A DNA stretch of 15,476 nucleotides from assembly GCA_017883485.1 (NCBI GenBank), contig JADGNM010000013.1, positions 1-15,476 on the forward strand. The letters are read 5' to 3'. The notes beneath the pieces were generated by a model. The model was given only the letters and a program-made list of their open reading frames with translations. It was not told where the DNA came from and did not search any database. The stretch comes from Methanosarcina sp. (GTDB taxonomy: Archaea; Halobacteriota; Methanosarcinia; Methanosarcinales; Methanosarcinaceae). The position numbers were made by a program, and so were the translations under genes. Positions 13,985 to 15,476 of the stretch are shown here, piece by piece. Positions within the stretch are counted from its first letter, which is position 1, and each line of letters starts with the position of its first letter.

Positions 13985-14265
13985 TTAATAAGTCCTCATG
14001 AAATTGATTTGGGAATCTCAGGTAATTGTAAAGCCTTGATTCGTCAGAAATACTAGGATGGATAACGGCATTCATTATATTAAATTTTCACTACTCTGCG
14101 TCAGTTGAAAAAGTTTTGAGTTTATAAAGGTGATTGTGGTGGTTGTAAGTTTTGGAATTTAATACTTCTTTAGAGAAAATATTCTAAATAGACTTATCGA
14201 AATGGTTTCTAAAACATAGTCTTAAATCCGAATTTGTGATACTAATCTCTGTTGCCTGTTCAAAT
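13985..14265. other. Divergent intergenic region between glyS and the winged-helix gene
   Basis: About 280 bp with no gene. It holds the glyS ribosome site GAGG (13994-13997) and a minus-strand TATA-like TTTAATATAA near 14077-14086. A plus-strand TTTATAAAGGTG near 14121 resembles a promoter plus ribosome site, but the frames behind it close within about ten codons. Composition becomes more AT-rich towards the right. Confidence 0.5.
14077..14086 (-). promoter_or_regulatory. TATA-like element of glyS
   Basis: Minus-strand TTTAATATAA, about 95 bp from the glyS ATG, would give a leader of around 70 nt. The assignment rests on resemblance to the consensus only. Confidence 0.35.
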
Positions 14266-14280
14266 CGAAACATATATATA
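14265..14280 (+). promoter_or_regulatory. BRE and TATA box of the winged-helix/radical SAM operon
   Basis: TCGAAA (BRE-like) runs directly into CATATATATA. The usual offset places transcription start near 14300-14303, in the middle of the 22-bp palindrome and about 10 nt before the ATG at 14312. The mRNA would therefore be leaderless or nearly so, consistent with the lack of a ribosome site there. Confidence 0.6.
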
Positions 14281-14289
14281 ATTGCAGAC

Positions 14290-14311
14290 AAAATTGCAAT
14301 ATTGCAATTTT
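14290..14311. promoter_or_regulatory. Perfect 22-bp palindrome: candidate operator
   Basis: The left half is AAAATTGCAAT and the right half is its exact reverse complement, with no spacer. It begins 10 bp after the TATA box and ends at the base before the ATG of the winged-helix gene, so a bound protein would cover the expected transcription start. An extra ATTGCA half-site lies at 14281-14286. Autoregulation by the adjacent winged-helix protein is the simplest reading, inferred from position. Confidence 0.65.
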
Positions 14312-14548
14312 ATGACGACCGAAGAAATACTTAACAAATCTGATCTTGTTTGGGATTACTTTTCTAAACATCCCTATGAAGAAATAGCACCAAAGGGACT
14401 TACTCAAAAACTTAATTTAAAATATAATACAGTTAACAGCGCTATTAATCGTCTATACATTAGTGGGAAAATTAGAAAGAAAGAGAGGGGAATTTATATA
14501 CTATGTGAGTTGCCAAAAGGACAAACGACTTTTGGAAACAATGTTTAG
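14312..14548 (+). CDS. Small winged-helix-like protein, putative local regulator
   Basis: A 78-residue protein of mixed charge. It reads as a helix-turn-helix with a wing: helices around TEEILNKSDLVWDYFSKHPYEEIAP, then GLTQKLNLKYNTVNSAINRLYISGKI (a turn and recognition-helix pattern), then a basic wing RKKERGIYIL. The frame is open back to a TTG at 14282, but that codon lies upstream of the expected transcription start, so the ATG at 14312 is chosen. The gene ends in TAG; reading it as pyrrolysine would add the residue and seven more codons before a TAA. The radical SAM gene begins 56 bp downstream on the same strand. A DNA-binding repressor acting on the adjacent palindrome is the favoured role. 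A peptide-binding RRE/PqqD-like role, also winged-helix in fold, is the alternative. I do not recognise a named family. Confidence 0.72.
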   Translation: MTTEEILNKSDLVWDYFSKHPYEEIAPKGLTQKLNLKYNTVNSAINRLYISGKIRKKERGIYILCELPKGQTTFGNNV

Positions 14549-14604
14549 GTACATAGAAAAAAGTATCTGTAAAGAAAGCTAAGGATAATAAGGGGAATGC
14601 AATT

Positions 14605-15476
14605 TTGAATGATTTAACCCTAGAGATAACAAAAAAATGCCCTATGAGCTGTGTTTTGTGCTCTTCAGAAGGAGGTGAGCCTTATCCGAAAGAATTCAGC
14701 TTGCATGAGCTGAAAAGTATTGTGGATCAGGCTAAATCCCTAGGGGTAACTCAAATATCCTTATCCGGCGGAGAACCTCTTACTTACCCACATATTTTAG
14801 ATATTTGTAAATACATTGCAAATCTTGGCATTGAAGTCTTCGTATATACTTCTGGAAACACAATTAACGAAAATAATTCCATTTCTTCTATTTCAGTGGA
14901 TTATTTCTTAAAACTAAAAAGTGCTGGTGTAAAAGAGATCGTGTTTAGTATTCATGGCTCAAATCCTCAGATACATGACAAGATTACTAGAAGGGAAGGG
15001 AGCTTTGCAAATCTCTTAGAATCGATTAAGAATTCACAGACAGTCGAATTGAATGTTGATGTTCATTTTGTACCAGTTAGAGCAAATTTTAGATATTTGC
15101 CTTTAATTGTTTCTCTTATCAAGAGTTCTGGCCTAGATTCTCTTCATATCCTAAGATTTATTCCTCAAGGTCGCGGTTATGAAAATAAAGACCAGTTGGC
15201 TCTTTCAGTAGATGAAACATTAGAACTGCGTGAAATTCTTGCAAAATTGATGTTTGACTCCAATATGAGGATCGTTATTGGTGCTCATTATAATGAGCTT
15301 GGACTGAGCGATAATAAGTGCACAGCTGGTATTGAAAAAGCGGTAATCCGTCCAGACGGCTTAGTTTTTCCATGCGTCGGGATGAAAACGGTTGAAAAAT
15401 TTATTGATTTGAATGATGTCCGGTGTAATTTACATTTCGACCCCCATGCAAAAATAGAACATAATTTATTTTTTTG
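14605..15476 (+). CDS. Radical SAM protein with SPASM-type cysteines, 3'-truncated by the window
   Basis: The frame is open from 14557 to the window end; 290 codons are visible from the TTG at 14605. There is no in-frame ATG or GTG before the catalytic motif, and AGGGG lies 9 nt before this TTG, so TTG is taken as the start. Residues 12-19 are CPMSCVLC, the CX3CX2C motif that binds the 4Fe-4S cluster used for SAM cleavage, and SGGEP (54-58) is the SAM-contacting motif. VFSIHG near 119-124 and later strands fit the radical SAM barrel. Near the visible end, Cys239 and Cys257 are in the spacing CX12GX4C within PDGLVFPC, which fits the SPASM signature for auxiliary clusters (peptide or protein maturases such as PqqE or anSME, and some cofactor enzymes). 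Substrate unknown. Codons are AT-rich relative to glyS and hef. It is probably cotranscribed with the winged-helix gene. Confidence 0.88.
   Translation, partial: MNDLTLEITKKCPMSCVLCSSEGGEPYPKEFSLHELKSIVDQAKSLGVTQISLSGGEPLTYPHILDICKYIANLGIEVFVYTSGNTINENNSISSISVDYFLKLKSAGVKEIVFSIHGSNPQIHDKITRREGSFANLLESIKNSQTVELNVDVHFVPVRANFRYLPLIVSLIKSSGLDSLHILRFIPQGRGYENKDQLALSVDETLELREILAKLMFDSNMRIVIGAHYNELGLSDNKCTAGIEKAVIRPDGLVFPCVGMKTVEKFIDLNDVRCNLHFDPHAKIEHNLFF

Follow-up and report, generated by a model that had tools for sequence, protein, structure and literature searches.

Background

Stf76, a 76-amino-acid (aa) winged-helix protein of a Sulfolobus plasmid-virus, has two sites in its own promoter and, according to PMC4027180, is a monomer in solution that pairs on DNA, with two molecules at each site. 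AbiEi antitoxins are autoregulators that control their operon by way of inverted repeats within its promoter (PMC7319586). Here we consider a candidate for autoregulation in contig JADGNM010000013.1 of a Methanosarcina sp. assembly (GCA_017883485.1), where a perfect 22-bp palindrome stands directly ahead of a gene for a 78-aa protein with a predicted winged-helix fold. We use "the window" for the whole stretch of DNA analysed, 15,476 nucleotides, which is the entire contig C57; the draft genome to which it belongs comprises 453 contigs totalling 2.83 Mb and is 81.67% complete. The core of the palindrome is conserved ahead of the same gene in eight genomes, where that gene opens a patchily distributed cassette encoding winged-helix, radical SAM, HD-type and uracil-DNA glycosylase (UDG)-like proteins.

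Conservation and exclusivity of the palindrome

The proposed operator, AAAATTGCAATATTGCAATTTT, occupies positions 14290-14311 (neither strand being preferred) and consists of two 11-nt arms with 100% complementarity and a spacer of 0 nt; the ATG of the winged-helix gene follows directly 3' at 14312. The initial annotation, made from the letters of the window, was therefore right to describe an exact palindrome ending at the base before the start codon. It had also held such a palindrome to be very unlikely by chance, even in AT-rich DNA. Indeed, dinucleotide shuffling of the window, repeated 300 times, gave no perfect palindrome of at least 22 bp, yet among 5000 shuffled copies of the AT-rich stretch 14100-14560 there were five, or about 1 in 1000 locally, so that these odds by themselves are only suggestive. 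The strong evidence is conservation.

Genomes of the class (n = 237) were searched with HD proteins and, separately, with winged-helix proteins, and both searches point to the same eight: G000 (the source of the window), G345, G405, G413, G419, G442, G451 and G503. In the first search we kept the eight of ten genomes that had matches at E ≤ 0.001, having dropped weak matches in G330 and G110 (parts of 780- and 761-aa open reading frames); in the second, we set aside weak matches (E between 1e-5 and 0.01) in forty further genomes. A winged-helix match in G454 (E 3.4e-10) belongs to a longer protein, with no such operator seen, and an HD relative in G093 has no such regulator within the 11 kb examined. 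Three carriers correspond to named records: G451 to LFW-24 (L006), G405 to an ANME-2 metagenome-assembled genome (L007) and G503 to HMMV2 (L008). These three are also the close relatives returned from named records by the window's radical SAM query, together with two distant bacterial radical SAM genes.

A core 18-mer, AATTGCAATATTGCAATT (14292-14309, neither strand), stands exact and directly before the winged-helix gene in L006, L007 and L008; across the cassette genomes it is exact in six of eight and carries one mismatch in the other two (G413 and G419). Its inner 16-mer, ATTGCAATATTGCAAT, is present in all eight loci, ahead of the same gene and at the same place. The palindrome arms extend to 11, 10, 9, 9, 11, 8, 9 and 8 nt in the eight loci, and the conserved part is consequently narrower than 22 bp. 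Among the seven distinct loci (G413 and G419 counting as one), mean identity of the 18-bp site is 98% (lowest pair 94%), compared with 46% for the 60 bp upstream, 65% for the gene (210 bp) and 35% for DNA farther upstream. A comparison column by column from the dyad finds 16 of 16 core positions invariant, as well as an A at -11. The conserved site is composed of A-ATTGCAAT-ATTGCAAT-T, in which the two octamers (14293-14300 and 14301-14308, both on the + strand) lie head-to-tail and are each self-complementary.

The site is also nearly exclusive to the cassette. If one mismatch is allowed, 12 of the 237 class genomes contain the 18-mer; it is exact in six, every one a cassette carrier, and in none of the 229 class genomes that lack the cassette. 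In a phylum sample of 392 genomes, four match: two carriers exactly, and G380 and G214 with one mismatch. The expectation that the site would be conserved before orthologous winged-helix genes is thus upheld in all eight cassette genomes to within one mismatch, but the site is not general in the genus, as the exact 18-mer is found in only 1 of the 30 genomes from the genus. Scanned at up to three mismatches, the window's own genome contains the site once exactly and at four places with three mismatches, which points to a local regulator.

Promoter geometry and the winged-helix protein

The best TATA-like element of the window, TATATATA (14273-14280, + strand), begins 28 bp before the dyad and is separated from the palindrome by 9 bp. 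Boxes were ranked with a simple purpose-made scorer, and the transcription start is deduced from TATA spacing rather than mapped. In the eight loci the best box begins 28, 29, 29, 23, 28, 28, 29 and 28 bp from the dyad, and the ATG lies 9 to 14 bp beyond it. In archaea, transcription usually begins about 25 bp from the centre of the TATA box, which places the predicted start on the dyad, between the two octamers, with a leader of about 10 bases. The claim that the site covers the transcription start accordingly stands for the predicted start, and a protein bound there would be expected to obstruct the polymerase.

The first gene (14312-14548, + strand) encodes the proposed autorepressor, identified from its reading frame, an AlphaFold model and its relatives. 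The model (mean predicted local distance difference test score, pLDDT, 77.6) places helices at residues 9-19, 27-34 and 38-51 and strands at 55-57 and 61-63, with residues 1-6 and 70-78 below pLDDT 50. This bears out, as a structure prediction, the earlier suggestion of a winged-helix protein, and the model suggests a single domain of about 80 aa without an additional dimerisation domain. The protein is 53-62% identical to the first four relatives aligned. Assignment to the penicillinase repressors (PF03965) was rejected, with scores of 13.9 bits for the window protein and 20.3 bits for that of L007 against a gathering score of 22.6.

A proposed mechanism and the unit of recognition

Whichever unit is recognised, conservation and position of the palindrome indicate that it is very probably an operator for autoregulation of the cassette. 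We infer that the 78-aa protein is the binder and that it represses. Under this proposal, the protein would bind the tandem ATTGCAAT-ATTGCAAT, some 20 to 36 bp downstream of the first base of the TATA box, with the octamer-bound molecules sitting side by side on the DNA, and would block RNA polymerase or its access to the start site; the cassette would then be kept low until a presumed signal releases the repressor.

Evidence on the unit of recognition comes from a diverged homologue on contig C37 of G336 (L078 3884-4216), which is 41% identical to the window protein (E 9.1e-19) and is followed by neither a radical SAM nor an HD gene. Before it stand four units in strict 8-bp phase, ATTGCATT ATTGCATT ATTGCAAC ATTGCAAT, beginning 13 bp after a TTTATATA TATA box and lying over the predicted start. 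Three or more octamer units in phase were obtained in none of 200,000 shuffles that preserved base, not dinucleotide, composition. All four units keep ATTGCA in one orientation while the mirror half is not kept, and for this reason we regard the operator as an array of head-to-tail units, in which the perfect dyad arises because two head-to-tail octamers are each self-complementary. Consequently, the 22-bp dyad that the initial annotation took as the site is probably not what is recognised; comparison of the loci suggests instead an octamer in head-to-tail 8-bp phase, two tandem copies of which that annotation had missed. In an observation of separate interest, a glycyl-tRNA synthetase gene precedes the L078 regulator by about 1.2 kb, only tiny frames follow it, and the window cassette is also beside a glycyl-tRNA synthetase gene.

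Granting autoregulation, it is a substantial possibility, though the less favoured one, that one 18-bp dyad is read by a preformed dimer, in which case the repeated octamer would be a coincidence. All seven distinct cassette loci have a perfect 16-bp dyad, which a monomer reading ATTGCA head-to-tail would not need, and this invariance of the full 16 bp argues against the octamer as unit. However, the four 8-bp-phased units of L078 include two copies of ATTGCATT, which is not self-complementary, and the modelled 78-aa protein appears to leave no room for an additional dimerisation domain.

An additional single ATTGCA in the window (14281-14286, + strand), offset by 12 bp, does not share the phase of the octamers and is not conserved, there being neither ATTGCA nor TGCAAT at that place in the other six distinct loci. 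A half-site, TGCAATTTTG, at 14598-14607 before the radical SAM gene is not found at that place in relatives and was taken as chance. A wider regulon was sought with the spaced pattern ATTGCANNATTGCANN in nine genomes and rejected: besides the cassettes and the L078 array it occurs in four places (G442 C145, G442 C355, G336 C16 and G451 C66), three of them inside open frames of 188-279 codons; the chance expectation is about 0.5 per genome (estimated for two genomes at an assumed AT content).

Several findings weigh against autoregulation by this protein at this site, or against the octamer as its unit. The 18-mer with one mismatch occurs in four cassette-free genomes (G380, G432, G472 and G507), and two such sites (L045 and L047) lie shortly before an ATG, with no detectable winged-helix homologue; a winged-helix profile found nothing significant in the 2.7-3.0 kb around the four sites. 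The near-identity of G413 and G419 in this region reduces the eight loci to seven. The operator hardly varies among cassettes, leaving no co-variation of protein and site to compare, and the four-octamer array, judged against shuffles of base composition, is a single locus. The best TATA box of L008 is only 23 bp from the dyad, against 28-29 bp in the other seven loci. Finally, no Pfam or NCBIfam family claims the 78-aa protein at its cut-off, and a Foldseek search with the model returned no match at E 0.001 or better. As to the local context of one of these sites, the one-mismatch 18-mer of G472 (L045, approximately 1501-1518) is directly ahead of a GGAGG and the ATG of another gene.

Alternative explanations

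The alternatives to autoregulation fare less well. We regard it as improbable that another, host-encoded factor binds the site while the winged-helix protein acts elsewhere. The winged-helix protein is itself a putative binder, which gives this proposal some room, yet site and gene travel together, the exact 18-mer being confined to cassette genomes among the 237 and to a single copy in the window's genome; moreover, the diverged homologue of L078 has the octamer unit before its own gene. Activation of the operon from the site by the winged-helix protein, in place of repression, is if anything slightly less credible. Some archaeal regulators act both as activators and as repressors, but here the site is downstream of the TATA box and over the predicted start, a position from which a bound protein should impede the polymerase.

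An RNA hairpin or a core-promoter element, in place of an operator, is highly improbable. The palindrome does lie in the leader just ahead of the ATG; however, with the start predicted near the dyad one arm alone would be transcribed, making a hairpin of both arms unlikely, and a core-promoter element would recur, whereas 229 of the 237 class genomes lack the exact 18-mer. That the site marks the end of a mobile element, or its point of attachment, as the patchy cassette and its differing flanks might suggest, can be dismissed almost entirely: in the genomes searched at up to one mismatch it occurs at one place per genome, G345 with its two contigs included, and never at the far end of the cassette.

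The cassette and its genomic context

The initial annotation envisaged an operon with a radical SAM enzyme as its output. A radical SAM gene does come next after the winged-helix gene in all eight cassette genomes, but the operon is longer: in L006, L007 and L008 the order is winged-helix, radical SAM, HD-type and UDG-like. The HD gene is found in all eight genomes, with only its 3' tail in G000, on contig C33, and the UDG gene in seven, the contig of the eighth (G442) ending inside the HD gene. An assembly gap between C57 and C33 has apparently divided the window's cassette. The end of C33 (L033 2480-5362) carries the UDG gene together with the HD gene's 3' end, and small paired genes follow, two of which match PADLOC PDC-S09. 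Flanking genes differ among loci, and in comparison with four relatives of the window's genus the region upstream of the glycyl-tRNA synthetase gene stays similar only as far as about 14095-14112, before the cassette.

The window's radical SAM gene (14605-15476, + strand) is cut by the contig end and, from alignment to relatives, likely starts at a TTG; it matches PF04055 (E 4.4e-21) and, over its radical SAM part, the PADLOC model of prokaryotic viperins, pVip (E 5.2e-15). For its L008 orthologue the best NCBIfam model is heme b synthase (TIGR04545), at 116 bits against a cut-off of 500. The end of the window's frame (15420-15476) departs from every aligned relative, in the manner of a frame error or foreign sequence, and the radical SAM protein of G345 (L011 1798-2808) has a SPASM-like C-terminal part without most of the cysteines of its relatives. 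In the HD-type protein H118, H191 and D192 are invariant in 42 aligned sequences, which we read as a putative HD motif (H...HD) of the HD phosphohydrolase superfamily. The last protein reaches the UDG superfamily PF03167 (80.4 bits in L008 against a gathering score of 24.3; 71.2 bits in L029); a family-4 uracil-DNA glycosylase was rejected, with scores under the curated NCBIfam cut-offs (103.2 against 250 bits and 96 against 125.3).

A viral origin was considered and rejected: the exact 18-mer occurs in three viral contigs, none with the regulator, and no viral relatives of the regulator or of the HD protein were found. The HD protein has no match in phage records and one match in plasmids. 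Among the papers listed by searches of the open-licence literature, one of them dominated by radical SAM papers, none concerned this cassette. PMC4158269 mentions a radical SAM family of islands whose gene context is not conserved, which may or may not be that of the cassette.

The chemistry of this patchy cassette (radical SAM, HD-type and uracil-glycosylase-like) suggests work on nucleotides or DNA, and a defence role is plausible. More speculatively, and in its full form doubtfully, the cassette could be a horizontally mobile and so far undescribed system in methane-cycling archaea, directed at the modification or destruction of nucleotides or foreign DNA, held quiet by a mini repressor on two to four 8-bp-phased octamers and turned on when the array is disturbed or the repressor titrated, for example during infection. 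The archaeal regulator, of some 80 residues, forms a compact and testable pair with its 16-18 bp site, which is conserved in methanogens and anaerobic methanotrophs. Furthermore, if the octamer is indeed the unit, this would be a simple system for varying the number of units on the DNA and following how a repressing complex is assembled from a monomeric winged helix.

Comparison with known systems

Several described systems share parts of this arrangement. AbiEi antitoxins are likewise DNA-binding autoregulators, and residues 24-66 alone of the window protein show weak profile similarity to them (PADLOC AbiEi, E 5e-4). However, AbiEi carries an antitoxicity domain as its second domain and is paired with a DUF1814 toxin (PMC7319586); neither feature is seen here. 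An AbiE type IV toxin-antitoxin system was accordingly rejected: the protein is 78 aa and not two-domain, and the next gene in all eight loci encodes a radical SAM protein and not a DUF1814 nucleotidyltransferase. BrxR is a repressor acting on inverted repeats and controls a phage-defence island, but it is a bacterial, multi-domain WYL protein (PMC9122601), and for our cassette defence is no more firmly placed than plausible. In Methanosarcina mazei, MM_0565, a protein with a winged-helix domain, binds its own promoter region, including the transcription factor B recognition element (BRE) and TATA box, and the transcript is leaderless; that protein, however, combines CARF with a winged helix, has wide effects and is linked to CRISPR and a casposon (PMC7465815).

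For the enzymes, the Parabacteroides plasmid NZ_OY725812.1 carries adjoining radical SAM (29% identical) and HD (32.9% over 75%) homologues. Their neighbours are TIR (ThsB-like), Nmad2 and HMUDK genes, unlike those of the cassette, and no UDG or such winged-helix gene is annotated alongside. In that island (L038 4204-9362) PDC-M50A-like, TIR (ThsB-like), Nmad2, HMUDK, radical SAM and HD genes stand in a row, with an integrase upstream.

The closest working analogue would be Stf76/ORF80, by a likeness in working rather than family membership. Both are archaeal single-domain winged-helix proteins (76 and 78 aa), and both have, in their own promoter, paired self-complementary motifs at fixed spacing, here two copies of ATTGCAAT in all eight cassette loci; autoregulation has been proposed for Stf76 as well (PMC4027180). 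The motifs differ, however: Stf76 sites are TTAA-N7-TTAA, with centres 11 bp apart and two sites separated by 60 bp, whereas the ATTGCAAT centres here are 8 bp apart in one site over the predicted start, in a different gene context. Membership of the Stf76/ORF80 family proper was therefore rejected, the operator being ATTGCAATATTGCAAT and not TTAA-N7-TTAA. The kind of control suggested for the window, local autoregulation by a winged-helix protein, is ordinary, and what is unusual is the detail: a mini repressor, an octamer array, and a cassette that travels with its switch.
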